A DNA stretch of 46,294 nt from Oscillospiraceae bacterium (lineage in GTDB: Bacteria; Bacillota; Clostridia; Oscillospirales; Oscillospiraceae): positions 1 through 46,294 of the forward strand of contig WQXY01000018.1 in NCBI GenBank assembly GCA_009781515.1. Reading direction: 5' to 3'. Below, piece by piece: positions 8,169-14,560 of the stretch (the first letter of the stretch is position 1; every line of letters begins with the position of its first letter). The translations under genes and the position numbers were made by a program. The notes beneath the pieces were generated by a model. It was not told where the DNA came from, made no database searches, and was given only the letters and a program-made list of their open reading frames with translations.

Positions 8169-8244
8169 TCCTCAATAGCTCAGCTGGTAGAGCATGCGGC
8201 TGTTAACCGCAGGGTCGTTGGTTCGAGTCCAACTTGAGGAGCCA
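8169..8244 (+). tRNA. tRNA-Asn (GTT), CCA encoded
   Basis: Acceptor arms TCCTCAA and TTGAGGA pair fully. The D-loop AGCTCAGCTGGTAGAG, anticodon loop CTGTTAA and T-loop GGTTCGAGTCC are canonical. The discriminator base is G and CCA is encoded (8242-8244). The last 15 bases, CAACTTGAGGAGCCA, are repeated at 9173-9187, so this gene is the integration target of the adjoining island and was restored by it. Confidence 0.95.
8230..8244 (+). repeat. Left att-like repeat (tRNA-Asn 3' end)
   Basis: CAACTTGAGGAGCCA is the end of the intact tRNA gene including CCA. It is identical to 9173-9187, 943 bp away. Confidence 0.8.
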
Positions 8245-8302
8245 ACTGCGCCATAGACGAACCTTTTACAGGTCTGTTTATGGCGTAGTTTATTTTTATT
8301 TG
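8245..8302 (+). terminator. Rho-independent terminator behind tRNA-Asn, carried by the island
   Basis: ACTGCGCCATA (8245-8255) pairs with TATGGCGTAGT (8279-8289), with one G-T wobble, and TTTATTTTTATTT follows. It starts at the first base after the CCA, so the island itself supplies the tRNA's present terminator. Confidence 0.7.
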
Positions 8303-8319
8303 TTAGGTTGGAGATTTTC

Positions 8320-8348
8320 TTGCGTTTATTACTACGAAAGTCTATAAT
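8320..8348 (+). promoter_or_regulatory. Promoter of the island gene pair
   Basis: TTGCGT (8320-8325) and TATAAT (8343-8348) are separated by 17 bp. CAGGAGG follows before the ATG at 8368. Confidence 0.5.
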
Positions 8349-8367
8349 ATAAGCAGGAGGATGCACC

Positions 8368-8901
8368 ATGAGCATTGATGTAATAATTGACAAATTGACA
8401 CCATGTTTAGAAGAAGTTTCAACTGGTGATATATATCAAACAACATTCTCAACAACTGAAATAGAAGAACTTGATGACCTACAAGCTAAAGGTTGGAATT
8501 TTGACTGGACAGATAATGAGTTGAGTCGGTATAATATATATAAGTTGCAACTAAAAGATGACGATATTATTCAAGGCTTGGTTGCTGCAGAGGTTGTACG
8601 CGGAGCAGTGCATATTCGATTAACAGAAAGTGCTCCACATAACATTGGGAAAGATAAAAAATACATCGGTGTTGGCGGACATCTGTTTGCAATAGCAATA
8701 AAACTTTCAAACGCAATGGGATTCAACGGGTATGTGTTCTTTGACGCAAAAAACATGAAACTAGTTGACCACTATACAGAGAGTTTCGGCGCAAATCGCA
8801 TACCTACCAGAGTGCATATATACCGAATGGAAATAAACGAGATTAACGCTCAAGAATTACTCGAAAAATACACGTTGGAGGGCGACTTAAATGTGCGATA
8901 A
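8368..8901 (+). CDS. GNAT-like acetyltransferase domain protein on the island
   Basis: 177 residues; AGGAGG lies 6 nt before the ATG. The centre and C-terminal half have a GNAT outline: a strand around 68-84, then YIGVGGHLFAIAIKLSNAMGF (about 99-119) in place of the acetyl-CoA loop and helix, a GYVFFDAK strand, and LVDHYTESFGA as the usual helix with Tyr and Phe before the last strand. The CoA loop is GVGGHL, short of the full R-x-x-G-x-G/A, so activity is uncertain. It overlaps the next gene by 11 nt. Roles in defence, toxin action or metabolism are all possible; the sequence does not decide. Confidence 0.6.
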   Translation: MSIDVIIDKLTPCLEEVSTGDIYQTTFSTTEIEELDDLQAKGWNFDWTDNELSRYNIYKLQLKDDDIIQGLVAAEVVRGAVHIRLTESAPHNIGKDKKYIGVGGHLFAIAIKLSNAMGFNGYVFFDAKNMKLVDHYTESFGANRIPTRVHIYRMEINEINAQELLEKYTLEGDLNVR

Positions 8902-9103
8902 TGCAATCAGAGAACAAACACTGGACGAAATTGCTGAAGAAGCCGGTGGTTATGTAAGTTATACTCCCGGAGTTCCTCTTGTAGTGGATGCGGACTACCG
9001 TGCTATGTCAAAGTATTGTATAGAAAAGGGAATTAAGCCAATGGACTTAACAGATGAGGAATACAGTATGTTCCTCTACGATGAACCATTGGTCTACGCA
9101 TAA
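8891..9103 (+). CDS. Small acidic protein co-encoded with the GNAT-like gene
   Basis: 70 residues, starting inside the last codons of the GNAT-like gene, so translation is probably coupled; a second ATG at 8901 is out of frame. It is strongly acidic, without Cys pairs, membrane segment or helix-turn-helix. The pattern is IAEEAGGY, PLVVDADYRAMSKYC, then PMDLTDEEYSMFLYDEP. I do not recognise a named family. It could be a partner or inhibitor of the GNAT-like protein. The final 69 bp before the right repeat hold no gene. Confidence 0.65.
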   Translation: MCDNAIREQTLDEIAEEAGGYVSYTPGVPLVVDADYRAMSKYCIEKGIKPMDLTDEEYSMFLYDEPLVYA

Positions 9104-9172
9104 TTGTTATTTTAGAGGCGTGGTAATAATAAAACCGCAGGGCAATGTATAATGCCGTTTCGTATTTGGCGA

Positions 9173-9187
9173 CAACTTGAGGAGCCA
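9173..9187 (+). repeat. Right att-like repeat
   Basis: This second copy of CAACTTGAGGAGCCA lacks any preceding tRNA body. The sequence upstream is unrelated to the tRNA, so it is the distal junction of the island. Confidence 0.8.
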
Positions 9188-9190
9188 CGC

Positions 9191-9218
9191 AAAAAGTCCG
9201 AGAAATCGGACTTTTTGT
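9191..9218. terminator. Palindromic terminator next to the island
   Basis: AAAAAGTCCGA and TCGGACTTTTT form a perfect 11-bp stem with a GAAA loop and work in either direction. It is probably the original terminator of tRNA-Asn. Confidence 0.85.
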
Positions 9219-9245
9219 CATATTCAAACACAATACTATCTAAGC

Positions 9246-9348
9246 ATGGTATAATGATTGCTGCGCAATCATCATACTACGGATTTAAGCCGTGGCGCGG
9301 GACGCGCTACATGACACTTTATACCATTCGCTACGCTCATGGTATAAT
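9246..9348. repeat. Cluster of three hairpins with ATGGTATAAT repeats
   Basis: ATGGTATAAT occurs at 9246 and 9339, and its complement TTATACCAT at 9319. Three stems follow each other: ATGATTGC/GCAATCAT (9254-9272), GTGGCGCG/CGCGCTAC (9292-9310) and TATACCAT/ATGGTATA (9320-9346). The last TATAAT (9343-9348) may serve as -10 box of the response regulator gene at 9378. No coding sequence lies here. It resembles a small palindromic interspersed element. Confidence 0.6.
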
Positions 9349-9377: not shown

Positions 9378-10040
9378 TTGGATATCCTGATAATAGAAGA
9401 CAGTTTTGATATTGCAGATATGCTTATGAAGTTTTTGAAAAAAGCGGGATATACTTCATATAACGCAAAAAGCGGAGAAGAGGGATTGGAGTACATTAAG
9501 TATCATGATGTAAAAATCGTTTTGCTTGATATAATGCTGCCCGGAATTGACGGCTTTCAGGTGTGTAAGAAAATTTCTGACGAGAAAAATCTTCCGCTTA
9601 TAATCCTCAGCGCAAAAACAGATAAGGATGATAAACTGAGCGGCCTCATTTTAGGTGCTGATGACTACATAGAAAAACCGTTTGACGTTGATTTGCTGAT
9701 TGCGAAAGTAAGTTCGCTTTACCGCAGACATTATAAAAAAGACCCGATAATAAAAGTACCTGATATAAAAATCGATATAGAAGCAAGAAGCGTAACATTC
9801 AAAAAAATACCTCTTGAGCTTAATGTAAAAGAGTTTGATTTGCTCCTGCTTCTTGTGCAAAGCCGCGGCAAGGCACTGCGGAAGGAATATATATTAGGAA
9901 AAGTATGGGGAATGGATAATTTTAGCGAGCCGCAAACCCTGACTGTTCATATCAACCGGTTACGTGAGAAAATTGAAGATGACCCGAGAAAACCAACGCG
10001 AATTGTTACCGTTTGGGGTGTGGGGTATAAATTCGTATGA
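9378..10040 (+). CDS. OmpR-family response regulator
   Basis: 220 residues from a TTG start, preceded by GTGGGGGAA. The receiver domain has the acidic pair ED near residue 8, phospho-acceptor Asp51 in LLDIMLPG, and the conserved SAKTDKDDK loop with Lys in IEKPFD. The C-terminal winged helix (about 125-220) ends in TVWGVGYKFV, typical of OmpR/PhoB proteins. It overlaps the kinase gene by 4 nt. The convergent ABC transporter genes next door are likely targets, as in many peptide-response modules, but no operator was identified. Confidence 0.93.
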   Translation: MDILIIEDSFDIADMLMKFLKKAGYTSYNAKSGEEGLEYIKYHDVKIVLLDIMLPGIDGFQVCKKISDEKNLPLIILSAKTDKDDKLSGLILGADDYIEKPFDVDLLIAKVSSLYRRHYKKDPIIKVPDIKIDIEARSVTFKKIPLELNVKEFDLLLLLVQSRGKALRKEYILGKVWGMDNFSEPQTLTVHINRLREKIEDDPRKPTRIVTVWGVGYKFV

Positions 10041-11245
10041 TCAACTTTAACAGGATTATAATTATTATAACTGTTTTATTTATATTGTTGATTACTTCGG
10101 CGAATATAATATTAATTAACTTTACACACTCTGACGAGAAACACCATCTTGTCGAAATCAATCGTGCTTTCACCGAAATAATCGAAAACGGATTTAGCGA
10201 TAACATAAGCGGATATCAATATATCACGGGAATTTCATTAATAGAAAATGATTTTGGATTTAATGATAATAACCCCTACGTTATAAGAGCATATAATGAC
10301 AGATATATTAAATTCAATTACACTAATGATACTTCAAATAACAATATAATAATTCTTAATGTATTTTTTGCGATTGTAGTTATTGTTATTTTTGTAATTC
10401 TTGTGTATATAAAACAACAAATCATAAAACCCTTTAATAAAATCAGCGAAATGCCGTACGAATTGTCAAAAGGACATTTAGTAAAGGGTCTTAAAGAAGA
10501 AAAAAACCGGTTTTTCGGGAAATTTATTTGGGGGCTTGACCTACTACGCGAAACATTGGAAAAACGAAAAACAAAAGAGCTAATGCTCCTTAAGGAGAAA
10601 AAAACGCTTGTGCTTTCTATTTCGCATGATATAAAAACGCCACTCTCCGCAATAAAACTGTATACTAAAGCAATGTCCGAGGGGCTCGGGAGCAGTGATG
10701 AATTAGCAGAAAAAATTGACCAAAACGCAGACAAAATCGAAACATTTATTAACGATATAATTAAAACTTCAAAGGAAGATATCCTTGATATAGAAGTCCG
10801 CAACAGTGAGTTTTATCTTATTGATTTACTAAGCAGAGTTGATGATTATTACTGCGACAAAATGGAGCTGCTAAAAATTGAATTTGAAATTAAATCGTTT
10901 GAAGACTGCTTAATTTATGGTGATATTGACAGAACAGTGGAAGCGTTTGAAAACATAATCGAAAACGCGATAAAATACGGCGACGGAAAATCGATTTCAA
11001 TAAATGCCGTACGGGAAGAAGCCTGCTGTCTTGTAACAATTTCTAACTCCGGCAACACGCTTCCCGCAGAGGAAATGATCCGCGTTTTTGACAGCTTCTG
11101 GCGAGGCTCCAATGCAAAAGATAAAAAAGGCAGCGGACTGGGCTTATATATCTGCCGTCGTATCCTCACGCAAATGAGTGGTGATATATTTATAGAAGAA
11201 GACGGCGACAATATAAAAATCACCGCCGTCTTAAAGGTACTTTAG
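10037..11245 (+). CDS. Two-component sensor histidine kinase
   Basis: 402 residues. Two membrane segments (about 6-27 and 103-125) enclose a roughly 75-residue external domain of unknown ligand. A HAMP-like region follows, then the H-box SISHDIKTPLSAIK with His197, the N-box ENIIENAIKYGD, and the G-box GSGLGLYICRRI. The external loop is larger than in BceS-type kinases, so direct ligand sensing is possible. Its last codons contain a GACGGCG/CGCCGTC stem (11201-11230) followed by T-rich sequence, perhaps an overlapping terminator. It converges with the ABC ATPase gene, 18 bp apart. Confidence 0.92.
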   Translation: MINFNRIIIIITVLFILLITSANIILINFTHSDEKHHLVEINRAFTEIIENGFSDNISGYQYITGISLIENDFGFNDNNPYVIRAYNDRYIKFNYTNDTSNNNIIILNVFFAIVVIVIFVILVYIKQQIIKPFNKISEMPYELSKGHLVKGLKEEKNRFFGKFIWGLDLLRETLEKRKTKELMLLKEKKTLVLSISHDIKTPLSAIKLYTKAMSEGLGSSDELAEKIDQNADKIETFINDIIKTSKEDILDIEVRNSEFYLIDLLSRVDDYYCDKMELLKIEFEIKSFEDCLIYGDIDRTVEAFENIIENAIKYGDGKSISINAVREEACCLVTISNSGNTLPAEEMIRVFDSFWRGSNAKDKKGSGLGLYICRRILTQMSGDIFIEEDGDNIKITAVLKVL

Positions 11246-11263
11246 TTTAGTGCCGCAGGAGTT

Positions 11264-12025
11264 TTACCAACCCATGTCAAGCAGCCAGTTGTTCAACGTT
11301 CTTTCACGTTCTTTTAATGTACTTTCGCCTGTATATTTACCAAGCGTGTTTTCTCCGTGAATATTGCCATCCGAAATATACAAAACGCGGTCGCTTTTTG
11401 CGGCAACACGAACATCATGTGTAACAAGCAGAACTGCCGTCCCCTCGCGGTTGACACGCAGAATTTCATCCATTACCTCTGTGGAGGATTGTTTGTTGAG
11501 CGACCCTGTCGGTTCGTCTGCAAAGAGCATTTTCGGTTTGTTGATAATACTTCTGCAAATACACGCCCGTTGCAACTGTCCGCCTGAAACTTCATTAATA
11601 TCGTTATCGGCAACTTCAATAATTCCCATTTTCTTCATAAGCTCTTTTGCATACTCATTTTTTTCCTTGCGTGTCCCGTTTTTGGTTTTATAAGCCGGCA
11701 GGATTATATTATCAAAAACAGTTAAGTTTTTAAGCATATACATTTGTTGGAATATAAACCCCATTTCCGTAAGCCGGACATCAGCAATCCGGTTTTTTTT
11801 CAATTTGGCGATTTCTTTACCCCAAAACGTAACGCTTCCTGCGGTGGGATTATCCATTCCGCTGACTGTGTAAAGAAGTGTTGATTTACCCGAACCCGAC
11901 GCTCCCATAACAGCGACCATTTCACCCTCTGACATTGAAAAGTTTGCGTTTTTAAGGACATTATTCTGCCTTTTGCCGATTATATATGTTTTGCATAAGT
12001 CTCTTACAGTTAGTACGTTTGTCAT
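11264..12025 (-). CDS. ABC transporter ATPase, MacB/LolD type
   Basis: 253 residues from the ATG at 12025; the in-frame ATG 4 codons upstream touches the ribosome site. Motifs: Walker A GASGSGKST, Q-loop FIFQQMYML, signature VSGGQLQRA, Walker B MLFADEPTG and switch His in VTHDVR. This ATPase class pairs with FtsX-like permeases, and that gene lies just upstream with 16 bp between. Together they would form a mechanotransmission-type transporter for peptides or lipoproteins. The C-terminal 30 residues are an extension beyond the core fold. Confidence 0.92.
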   Translation of the reverse strand: MTNVLTVRDLCKTYIIGKRQNNVLKNANFSMSEGEMVAVMGASGSGKSTLLYTVSGMDNPTAGSVTFWGKEIAKLKKNRIADVRLTEMGFIFQQMYMLKNLTVFDNIILPAYKTKNGTRKEKNEYAKELMKKMGIIEVADNDINEVSGGQLQRACICRSIINKPKMLFADEPTGSLNKQSSTEVMDEILRVNREGTAVLLVTHDVRVAAKSDRVLYISDGNIHGENTLGKYTGESTLKERERTLNNWLLDMGW

Positions 12026-12041
12026 GACGATTACCATTCCT

Positions 12042-14390
12042 TTACTCTACATTATTGATTTCTCTAAAATCGATTTTATTAACAGCGACTGAACCGAATA
12101 TTGCTGCCGCAGCTGTTCCGAAAAGCAGAAGCATCGGATATAGAAAATATACTTCAAAAGCTACGACATTGAGCGGCATTTGCGGAGCGCCCATAATTCC
12201 GAATGTATAACGTGAAATTACAGGGTTTAGCGGATTTGACAGTAGTGTGCCAAGTGTCACGGAAACAAACAACACAATAATAATTCTTATAATCTGCCAT
12301 AACTTGAGGAAACGGTTATTAAATCCAATATTTTTCATAAGTGAAATTTCGCCGCGTTCTCGCGTAACAAATGTCCGAATAAGCAAGATAGTGATTAACC
12401 CGTTAATGAATAAAACTACAAAGAGGACAAGGAATTTCATGTCTTCAATTATTTCGATTGAACTTCCAATGTATTGATCGAGCCACTGCCCGGCAGTTTT
12501 GATTTGATAATCGGGAGTTATTTCGGTCATTTGCTTAATTAGTTCTTCTGTAGTTTCAAAACCTGTACGGTTAATGAAATTACCTTGCAGCGTCATTGTC
12601 GAGGTGTGCGGAGCATCAATATCTGCCGCTTTTGAAAAAAGCATACTGATACCCATATTATTCATAGACTGCATACTTGCCGTGATAATGTAGTCACTAA
12701 TATCCGTTCCGATTTTGACACTCACCGTGTCTCCAATTACAACACCCAATCTATCCATGGCAAGGTTTGTGACTGCAATTTCGTTAGGTAATACAGGCGG
12801 TGTTCCCCCGGTGTAATTTTTATTCATATCAGTTTCATAAACCGATGATTGAAGCCCTAACATTTGAATACCGCTGTCCATGTCGTCCGTATATAACCAT
12901 GGAAATATCAGTAAAACCGTATTAAGCTCAAGCTCTATACCGTTTTCCTTATATAGCTGCTCAAGCTCACCTGCTTTTTTTATGTCGGCTTCAACGGTGG
13001 TATCGGGTGAAACAATGTAAACATCACTTTTTACAACCCCAAATAAATAGATTACATCATCGCCTTTTAATGTGTTCAGTGCATTAAGCGGCATGATAAT
13101 GAGCAGCGTTCCCAAAACAAAAGTAATTATAAGCACCGTATAACTTTTTGCTGCGCTCAGTATACTGTTAAAAGCCATATAAAATACAGTCGGTATGCTT
13201 TTTCGCCTGTTGAGGTGGAAGAAGCGTTTCTTTTTGAAACGTTCGCCGGTTGAACCGCCGCGTATAGCTTGTATAGCAGTGAACTTATCCACACTTCCCG
13301 AGCTTAATCGGCAGAATATTAAAACCAACCCGATTATCACAACACCGCAGATTATATTAATACCCATACTACCATCGGATTGAATAGCCATGTTATCCTG
13401 AACGCTTTCAAGCATCATAGTACCAAAAGGAATACTTATTATTGTTCCGCCAGTTGCGGCAACAAGTGAAATAGCAAAATATTTAACTATATAGATATTT
13501 TTGATTGCGGAATTCTTAAGTCCGATTGCTTTCATAATCCCGATTTCTCTGTAGTCCTCCTGTAATGTAAAAACAATCGTAAATCGCAATATTGCAAATG
13601 CGATAATTATAAGCACCACCCCGATTACTACAAGCAGGGAAGCTAAAACCATCTCAAGTGTTAGCGTTTGCTCAATCATCGCACGGTCGCCTGTCATTTG
13701 AACTATAAAACCTTGCTTTTGCAGTTCGCGATGTACGGTCTGTGGATAAGCGGTGCTAATAGAATAAGCTAAGTATAATACAGGTTGTTCGCCACTCGTG
13801 GCCATGAAATAATCATAATCTTCATCGCTTATTATTAACCTTTTTGTGTCTACATACGGAGAGCCGTACATAATGTCTTTTGTTGTATAGGTTAATGTAA
13901 ACGTCCTCTCCCTGTCTCCAACCCTTATGGTTATCTCATCCCCGATTTTTAGTTCCGAACGTCTTGCGTCAAAACGTGACAGTGCAATTTCGCCACCGCT
14001 TAAAACAGGTATTGGATTATTATCATCACCTAATGGAAAGCCGTACCTTTCCGGCCTTGTTGTTAATGCGCAGACACCCATAAGCGTAAAATAGTCGTCG
14101 TTTATAAAGTTTTCGTCGTTGACAATGATGCCTATATCCTTTTCAAAGTCATCAACGTAAGATAAGGACGACAACCATTCTTCAAATTGTTCGGTATCAT
14201 TATCACTTTTGAATATGAAAAAATCGGTTAATCTGCTTTTTTCGGTATAAAATTCTACCGCACCTGTCACAACAATAAGATTACTCACACTTGAAGCTGT
14301 AAACATCGCACAAAGCGTTATAAAGAGCAACAAGATAATATTCATCGATTTTTTGCGTTTCAGGTCTTTTCTTAAGATACTAAAGAACAT
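12042..14390 (-). CDS. FtsX-like ABC permease, two FtsX domains
   Basis: 782 residues from the ATG at 14390, with GGGAG upstream; a TTG 11 codons earlier is less likely. One N-terminal membrane segment (about 18-40) precedes a large external domain (about 45-240), then three segments in a first FtsX block, a second external domain with a GDTVSVKIG pattern, and a final three-segment FtsX block. The two blocks share the EIGIMKAIGLKNSAIK and EISLMKNIGFNNRFLK pattern, typical of FtsX. First gene of the leftward pair with the ATPase. The facing two-component system is the probable regulator. Substrate unknown; antimicrobial peptides are the usual guess. Confidence 0.88.
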   Translation of the reverse strand: MFFSILRKDLKRKKSMNIILLLFITLCAMFTASSVSNLIVVTGAVEFYTEKSRLTDFFIFKSDNDTEQFEEWLSSLSYVDDFEKDIGIIVNDENFINDDYFTLMGVCALTTRPERYGFPLGDDNNPIPVLSGGEIALSRFDARRSELKIGDEITIRVGDRERTFTLTYTTKDIMYGSPYVDTKRLIISDEDYDYFMATSGEQPVLYLAYSISTAYPQTVHRELQKQGFIVQMTGDRAMIEQTLTLEMVLASLLVVIGVVLIIIAFAILRFTIVFTLQEDYREIGIMKAIGLKNSAIKNIYIVKYFAISLVAATGGTIISIPFGTMMLESVQDNMAIQSDGSMGINIICGVVIIGLVLIFCRLSSGSVDKFTAIQAIRGGSTGERFKKKRFFHLNRRKSIPTVFYMAFNSILSAAKSYTVLIITFVLGTLLIIMPLNALNTLKGDDVIYLFGVVKSDVYIVSPDTTVEADIKKAGELEQLYKENGIELELNTVLLIFPWLYTDDMDSGIQMLGLQSSVYETDMNKNYTGGTPPVLPNEIAVTNLAMDRLGVVIGDTVSVKIGTDISDYIITASMQSMNNMGISMLFSKAADIDAPHTSTMTLQGNFINRTGFETTEELIKQMTEITPDYQIKTAGQWLDQYIGSSIEIIEDMKFLVLFVVLFINGLITILLIRTFVTRERGEISLMKNIGFNNRFLKLWQIIRIIIVLFVSVTLGTLLSNPLNPVISRYTFGIMGAPQMPLNVVAFEVYFLYPMLLLFGTAAAAIFGSVAVNKIDFREINNVE

Positions 14391-14560
14391 AATACTTTTC
14401 ACTTCTCCCTTCTTGAAGCCCAAAATACCATGTCAAATATTAAAAAAACCTTAAAAATAAAAAAACAAATCTTGATAAAATACTGAGATAATCTTGACAA
14501 TCTTCGTAATAAATGTTAAAAAAGACGCTGTGTGAATTTCATTATTTGAGGAGTGAAAGT

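Follow-up and report, generated by a model that had tools for sequence, protein, structure and literature searches.

The SCC elements of staphylococci insert by serine recombination at the 3' end of a gene, occur as tandem elements and include recombinase-less members (the ccr-less pseudo-SCC elements), while integron cassettes are small units, often of a single gene or a toxin-antitoxin pair, that form arrays and carry a folded attC for a tyrosine recombinase (IntI) encoded elsewhere. Islands at tRNA and tmRNA genes are reportedly credited to tyrosine integrases in Islander. The closest described system to the locus considered here is that of the ssrA-specific islands of Dehalococcoides with the large serine recombinase (LSR) DsiB (PMC3146451). 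Their integration module lies on the reverse strand adjoining attL, which is embedded in the LSR gene, a 20-bp direct repeat of the 3' end of the RNA gene is present, and the islands occur in tandem, with 15 of 31 being without an integration module (PMC3146451). Our locus lies in a window of 46,294 nt, the whole stretch of Oscillospiraceae DNA analysed (contig WQXY01000018.1), and shares with the Dehalococcoides type a repeat of the target's 3' end at both borders (15-bp perfect copies), an LSR-type left end with attL embedded in the 3' end of the LSR gene, here vestigial, and a cognate right arm, TTCGTATTTGG, whose spacing is off by one and whose profile match alone is weak (E=0.17). The target is ssrA in Dehalococcoides, whereas here it is tRNA-Asn, several tRNA-Arg genes, tRNA-Met (decayed) and tmRNA, and the 6-gene modules and rdhA cargo described in that source contrast with a two-gene unit of 943 bp (PMC3146451). 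A predicted terminator forms part of the att end here, a feature not mentioned for the Dehalococcoides islands in the passages on them (PMC3146451). Since no LSR is encoded, the segment in the window is a recombinase-less derivative of LSR islands at tDNA ends and not a full member.

The segment also fits the definition of a CIME, in that attL and attR are kept and integration and transfer genes are absent; CIMEs are described there as decayed ICEs or IMEs, and serine-recombinase IMEs are shown to disrupt dispensable genes (PMC5704250). It differs from what is described there in being one operon and in having as its recombinase an LSR at a tRNA 3' end (PMC5704250). CIME-like mobilisation by another element is conceivable from the predicted att sites, with the 18-nt spacing of the right arm as a warning. 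SCC elements target rlmH and have ccr genes, whereas the target here is tRNA-Asn and ccr genes are absent; integrons use attC and a tyrosine recombinase, whereas the borders here are tRNA tails with LSR arms. A literature search on LSRs at tRNA genes, on LSR cassettes and on termite gut with serine recombinase, with preprints and most subscription papers outside its scope, turned up no account of cassettes of this kind from this lineage. Within that scope, it is new that a range of tRNAs serve as targets, that a unit can be as small as one operon and that the left end has several uses at once.

The target gene, tRNA-Asn (gtt), is found by ARAGORN at 8169..8244 on the forward strand and is complete including CCA. 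Its 3' end, CAACTTGAGGAGCCA, forms a 15-bp direct repeat on the forward strand, with the left copy at 8230-8244 and the right copy at 9173-9187, and no further copy was found in the whole window on both strands with up to 3 mismatches allowed; a second exact copy is expected by chance about 1e-4 times (92.6 kb, both strands counted). The initial annotation had described an integrase-free island of 943 bp with two genes between two perfect copies of the tRNA-Asn 3' end, and this description holds throughout: both copies are exact, two overlapping genes lie between them, and 8245-9187 comes to 943 bp with the right copy counted in. The segment is likewise without a recombinase gene, and the missing enzyme can be identified from its vestiges as an LSR. 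The caveat that the repeat might be frequent by chance does not apply, with only the two copies in the window. A search for tyrosine recombinases gave six PF00589 matches in the assembly, on six other contigs, and none on the contig of the window. Upstream of the gene pair we noticed by eye a promoter-like TTGCGT-17-TATAAT (8320..8348, forward strand), with a similar stretch, also seen by eye, upstream of the pair in two relatives (G009 and G008), and a ribosome-binding-like AGGAGG is present in the segment. After the right copy a second hairpin (9189..9218, forward strand; -18.7 kcal/mol, z -7.4) with the loop GAGAAATC is, from its fold and from comparison with relatives, the displaced terminator of the tRNA.

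The left end of the element (8245..8294, forward strand), delimited by profile, covariation and fold, comprises a hairpin right after CCA, predicted to be a terminator, and includes the left arm CCATAGACGAA (8251-8261, forward strand). The hairpin begins at the first base past CCA and folds over 8245-8289 (-26.6 kcal/mol, z -8.7) as ACTGCGCCATAGACGAAC...GTCTGTTTATGGCGTAGT, followed by TTATT, and a similar hairpin is present in the 50 bases past CCA at tRNA-Arg, tRNA-Met, tmRNA and tRNA-Asn loci of relatives. An nhmmer profile trained on ten other left ends, the window sequence being excluded, matches exactly 8245-8294 with E=5.7e-12, and besides the opposite-strand reading of the same hairpin the next match in the window has E=1.4. 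After two rows with hairpins of other subtypes (G010_Asn and G010_ArgCCG) had been dropped from the 13-row alignment, 91.4% of cells in the stem were paired among the remaining 11 left ends, compared with 33-43% when one side was slid by 1-3 columns; both sides had changed in 9 of 18 pairs. Shuffles scored as high in 0 of 500 cases for four of five measures and in 5 of 500 for further pair types. Because the stem covaries, the hairpin after CCA is a structure kept by selection, and its simplest role is that of terminator of the tRNA, a function that we predict from the sequence; in complete elements these bases also serve as LSR codons and as an att arm. A fresh terminator directly past CCA had been proposed for this locus at the outset, and the hairpin is indeed there, covaries and is conserved where LSR elements occupy other tRNAs, termination itself being a prediction.

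A scan of genome contigs with the left-end pattern gave 10 matches, of which six lie in Oscillospiraceae MAGs; five of these are the G018, G004, G009, G010 and G005 loci, and the new one, L223, is a tRNA-tail junction with an LSR remnant and without a complete tRNA. The other four matches (in Pseudomonas, a Clostridiales MAG, Labilithrix and Parabacteroides) are without a tRNA tail and look like chance. A family-wide scan that allowed 3 mismatches matched 208 of 400 genomes, with frequent matches in the reversed control too, and was set aside. Neither the left-end pattern nor the circular attP pattern was found in viral contigs.

At the opposite border, pattern, profile and comparison identify the right arm TTCGTATTTGG (9159..9169, forward strand), which adjoins the right repeat copy, is the only exact match to this motif in the window and lies 18 nt from the end of CCA (17 in relatives). 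The two arms are inverted partners that form a 9/11 dyad around the tRNA tail, as expected of a candidate LSR attP, and 17 consecutive nucleotides, TTCGTATTTGGCGACAA, are common to this right end and that of a relative (G016:C20). The only LSR-bearing element with both ends clear is the tmRNA element of G018 (12.5 kb, 14-bp repeat, right arm GTTCGTATTTGG ahead of the repeat), and its arm, 17 nt ahead of the CCA end, has 15 exact occurrences in 19 genomes, that element included. With up to 1 mismatch the pattern matched 38 times in the 19 genomes (the 15 exact ones among them) against 21 times in the reversed control. A right-end profile was built from 20 ends with an extended tail chosen by eye, 11 of them exact and 9 with one mismatch, all of which match it by construction; the exact ends G006:C58, G006:C72, G011:C6 and G017:C167 were left out. 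In the window its best match is the left arm mirrored (E=0.027) and the right end comes second (9159-9176, E=0.17). The host assembly holds a further right end (G000:C38:21695), which departs from the pattern by a single mismatch and was itself part of the training set of the profile.

In the same genus, complete LSR elements occur at the 3' ends of tRNA-Arg, tRNA-Asn and tmRNA genes. The one complete LSR at tRNA-Asn, of 509 aa and with Resolvase, Recombinase and Zn-ribbon domains, follows the tRNA in G010 and reads towards it, its stop codon lying within the tRNA, and related complete LSRs are found at tRNA-Arg-UCU (G004, G009), tRNA-Arg-ACG (G018) and tmRNA (G018). The LSR frame enters the tDNA antisense in all five, as it does in a sixth, more distant LSR at tRNA-Leu; it ends inside the RNA gene in G010 and at the G018 tmRNA and runs beyond it in the three at tRNA-Arg. 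At the G018 tmRNA the frame runs across the virtual circular attP junction into the tail PNTNPVRILAYGFVVTISLER and a stop, and therefore attP lies inside the LSR gene and the C-terminus is exchanged on integration. A similar tail, PNPVYFFKKVFAVVVNFTRK, ends the related integrase (flagged incomplete or pseudo) in the record of Roseburia phage Shimadzu. The G010 tRNA-Asn element has a left end of a different subtype from the window's, and a repeat search in about 139 kb found no right end for it; a candidate from the pattern search, 10.8 kb downstream (1 mismatch, profile E=0.0025), ends in CTGCCGAGCCA and shares only GAGCCA with the tRNA-Asn tail.

Both sides of the segment bear traces of such a gene. 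A vestige of the LSR C-terminus runs antisense to the tRNA at 8186..8281 on the reverse strand, with 72% to residues 476-508 of the G010 LSR, of which about residues 487-508 are simply the antisense of the tRNA. This 33-residue stub is the only match to the G010 LSR at E<=0.001 in the host assembly (90.4% complete), in which no LSR of this clade was found. On the right, the reverse strand of 9107..9169 gives, set beside 22 other right ends, a vestige of the C-terminal tail that reads PNTKRHYTLPCGFIITTPLK and a stop. Most of those 22 also yield a tail ending in a stop when read in reverse (for example PNTNSLRVSAYGFAVVVTL), the exceptions being L330, L335 and L201, which are without such a tail in this frame, and L331, in which it is shortened. 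The left and right vestiges in the window are out of frame with each other, and together with the arm-to-CCA spacing of 18 instead of 17 this means that the predicted attR may be damaged.

Some tRNA-Asn loci of relatives are without an island. In the window tRNA-Asn is preceded by a FliL-like gene, which is also present in 7 of 13 relative loci compared, and the tRNA is complete in six of these seven (G005, G008, G010, G013 and two loci of G007). At G008:C247, G007:C88 and G007:C149 a terminator-like hairpin was read no more than about 60 bp past tRNA-Asn (that of G008 was also folded), and no second tRNA tail turned up in a pattern search. Their left flank is syntenic with the window and their right flanks are not, so that these three island-free loci are empty-site analogues and not proof. 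Comparison of relatives had been suggested as a means of confirming the insertion, and it succeeds in part: left-syntenic, island-free loci with a terminator close to the tRNA exist, but their right flanks differ and no same-species empty site was found among the loci compared. The opposite case, in which all close relatives would carry the same 943 bp in place, did not arise. The loop GAGAAATC of the displaced terminator recurs past tRNA-Asn tails in G008, G007:C88, G006 and G004, and its position after tRNA-Asn in G008 and G007:C88 bears out the earlier suggestion that the original terminator is stranded beyond the right copy. A search for the same gene pair located it at the same tRNA in G005, with a left end of a different subtype and no right repeat copy in about 1.5 kb past the pair. 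An LSR-type left end follows tRNA-Asn in G005 and G010, and probably also, in a diverged form, in G013.

The cargo consists of a 177-aa protein (8368..8901, forward strand) and a 70-aa partner (8891..9103, forward strand) whose genes overlap by 11 nt. The larger protein has a predicted GNAT fold with a likeness to tRNA-acetylating toxins, at 9-17% identity to the solved TacT/AtaT chains, and in a structure search with its model NatD and other acetyltransferases score within 1 Z unit of these. The partner is antitoxin-like by position and persistence: it adjoins the GNAT gene in all 11 loci, the window included, that retain over 50 residues of the GNAT protein, and is kept in two loci where the GNAT protein is lost or cut down. 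Its own model is of low confidence (pLDDT 70, pTM 0.42). Pfam, PADLOC, NCBIfam and PHROGs provided no convincing family for either gene, with weak Pfam and PHROGs rows at E 0.05-0.25, and for the partner Pfam, PADLOC and NCBIfam gave none at all. We infer a toxin-antitoxin-like pair of a GNAT acetyltransferase and a 70-aa putative neutraliser; the fold and the small co-encoded partner resemble TacAT/AtaRT, from which the pair differs in that the partner lies downstream. The target of the GNAT protein is likely to be a tRNA or another part of translation.

Similar LSR-free units of 1.2-2.4 kb occur in relatives, with borders less clear than those in the window. One (G010:C2) extends over 1198 bp from tRNA-Arg-CCG to a right end, carries a CorA-like gene and has the 9-base tail GGCATACCA at both borders, its left hairpin being of another subtype to which the left-end profile gives no match. 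A second (G005:C44) extends over 1579 bp from tRNA-Arg-CCU to a right end, carries DUF3800 and has a left end that matches the profile; since its right copy, GGCGTGCCA, does not match the tRNA tail, GGGGAGCCA, it is perhaps composite. Three tandem stretches lie between successive right ends: 1702 bp with an SLFN_AlbA_2 protein (G006:C204), 2363 bp in which a small gene precedes a sub-threshold GNAT match (G005:C148), and 1616 bp with a YhcG/DUF1016 nuclease that matches PADLOC PDC-S02 (G010:C23). The profile found no left end for these stretches, and no tRNA was found on their contigs. Units of about 1.5 kb with DUF3990 and DUF3791 (G016:C20) and of 0.78 kb (G006:C90) each have a degenerate second end, and no LSR-free unit was found at two sites.

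The 943-bp segment carries both ends of an LSR element without the LSR gene, and we think it likely that LSR recombination brought it into the 3' end of tRNA-Asn and that it would now need the LSR of another element to move. An LSR, provided in trans or once encoded here and then deleted, would have recombined attP with the tRNA tail; integration would have rebuilt the tRNA, supplied a new terminator and moved the old one 943 bp away, and the toxin-antitoxin-like cargo would favour retention of the cassette. In support of this, vestiges of the 3' end of the LSR gene flank the segment on both sides, that end straddles attP in a complete relative, and the left-end hairpin sits where the tRNA needs its terminator. 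An autonomous element is rejected, the LSR gene being absent. As to the present state of the segment, decayed LSR genes also occur, with residues 335-508 interrupted by stops at a tRNA-Met (G013:C32), residues 416-504 with one stop (G011:C7) and fragments (G010:C50), and we therefore place first, and are somewhat inclined to accept, the account that a longer LSR island lost its recombinase and most of its cargo, the rest becoming fixed and the left end being kept as a hairpin that terminates the tRNA. The 18-nt spacing, the frame break between the vestiges and the absence of an LSR from the host assembly agree with such decay, but both arms survive, both genes are open and in operon order, and there are other LSR-free units that combine a right end with a single gene or operon, an outcome not easily expected of random deletion.

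Those units instead favour the possible, though doubtful, alternative of an active satellite cassette, in which units of one operon with LSR arms travel in trans from one tRNA 3' end to another and maybe become stacked into arrays. The two units at tRNA-Arg genes and the three tandem stretches would be its other products, and the arms in the window are closest to those of tRNA-Arg elements though the site is tRNA-Asn. Set against this account are the right copy of G005:C44 that is mismatched to its tRNA-Arg-CCU, the missing profile left ends of the tandem stretches and of the unit at tRNA-Arg-CCG, the lack of tRNAs on the tandem contigs, the degenerate second ends of G016:C20 and G006:C90, the occurrence of no unit at two sites, the host assembly without an LSR and, once more, the spacing of 18. 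A wider proposal, which we regard as unlikely as it stands, is an integron-like LSR system in which tRNA and tmRNA 3' ends would be the docking sites, the LSR C-terminus would be exchanged per integration, and single-operon cassettes of sub-kb to 2 kb, some toxin-antitoxin-like or defence-like, would be shuffled in trans and stacked in arrays, each with a terminator that preserves the tRNA; the window would then hold the smallest cassette with both borders seen. Tail copies of about 59 bp that start in the D arm of the tRNA are the usual pattern for tyrosine integrases, and their presence in G002 and G006, in one case (G006:C194) with a copy of the 70-aa gene 86 bp away, lends something to a remnant of a tyrosine-integrase island at tRNA-Asn, but we rejected this as highly improbable on the 15-bp repeat and the LSR arms on both sides in the window. 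A chance repeat beside an ordinary operon, for which one can say that this genome has one instance only, deserves practically no credence in view of the roughly 1e-4 expected copies, the left-end profile match and the displaced terminator.

In the locus and its relatives, an LSR clade occupies the tails of tRNA and tmRNA genes, one short stretch serves as att arm, LSR codons and covarying hairpin, and a unit without a recombinase can be as small as a single operon. If such units move in trans, they would represent a further cassette economy beside integrons and SCC elements, and a source of natural att sites for several tRNAs. Other examples could be spotted by a simple rule, namely a tRNA, a hairpin directly past CCA, and a second tRNA tail with GTTCGKATTTGR placed 17 nt ahead of its end.

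Several further observations concern the surroundings of these elements. In six loci with related LSRs, L340 and L342 (human faecal phage scaffolds), L100, L101, L104 and L112, an arm like GTTCGGATTTG and a tRNA-like tail with CCA at its end lie on the strand of the LSR and downstream of it, a layout that therefore places the LSR at the right border there; this suggests that LSRs at tRNA tails are more widely spread in gut Clostridia. At L320 (G005:C148) the genes before and after the tandem stretch are mutually similar when compared by eye, one of them with a sub-threshold aspartyl-protease match, and the same cargo was possibly captured twice. The two G007 loci with a FliL-like gene followed by tRNA-Asn (L036, C88; L037, C149) reflect a duplication or a mixed bin. 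The 5'-truncated tRNA-Asn copies at L039 (G002:C83) and L044-L046 (G006:C194, C30, C185) are each preceded by unrelated sequence and are probably attR of tyrosine-integrase islands; at G002:C83 an LSR-type left end comes directly after such a copy, so that two systems stand in tandem. In the window itself, a palindrome-rich intergenic repeat of about 100 bp (9245-9348), between the displaced terminator and a response-regulator gene, has matches of 73-100%, at several places in G012, G014 and G015 and at one place each in others, and looks like a small dispersed repeat. Beyond it, 9378-14423 encodes the response regulator (Pfam) followed by a histidine kinase, an ABC ATPase and a 793-aa probable permease (by eye), presumably a module resembling the Bce-type peptide-sensing ones.
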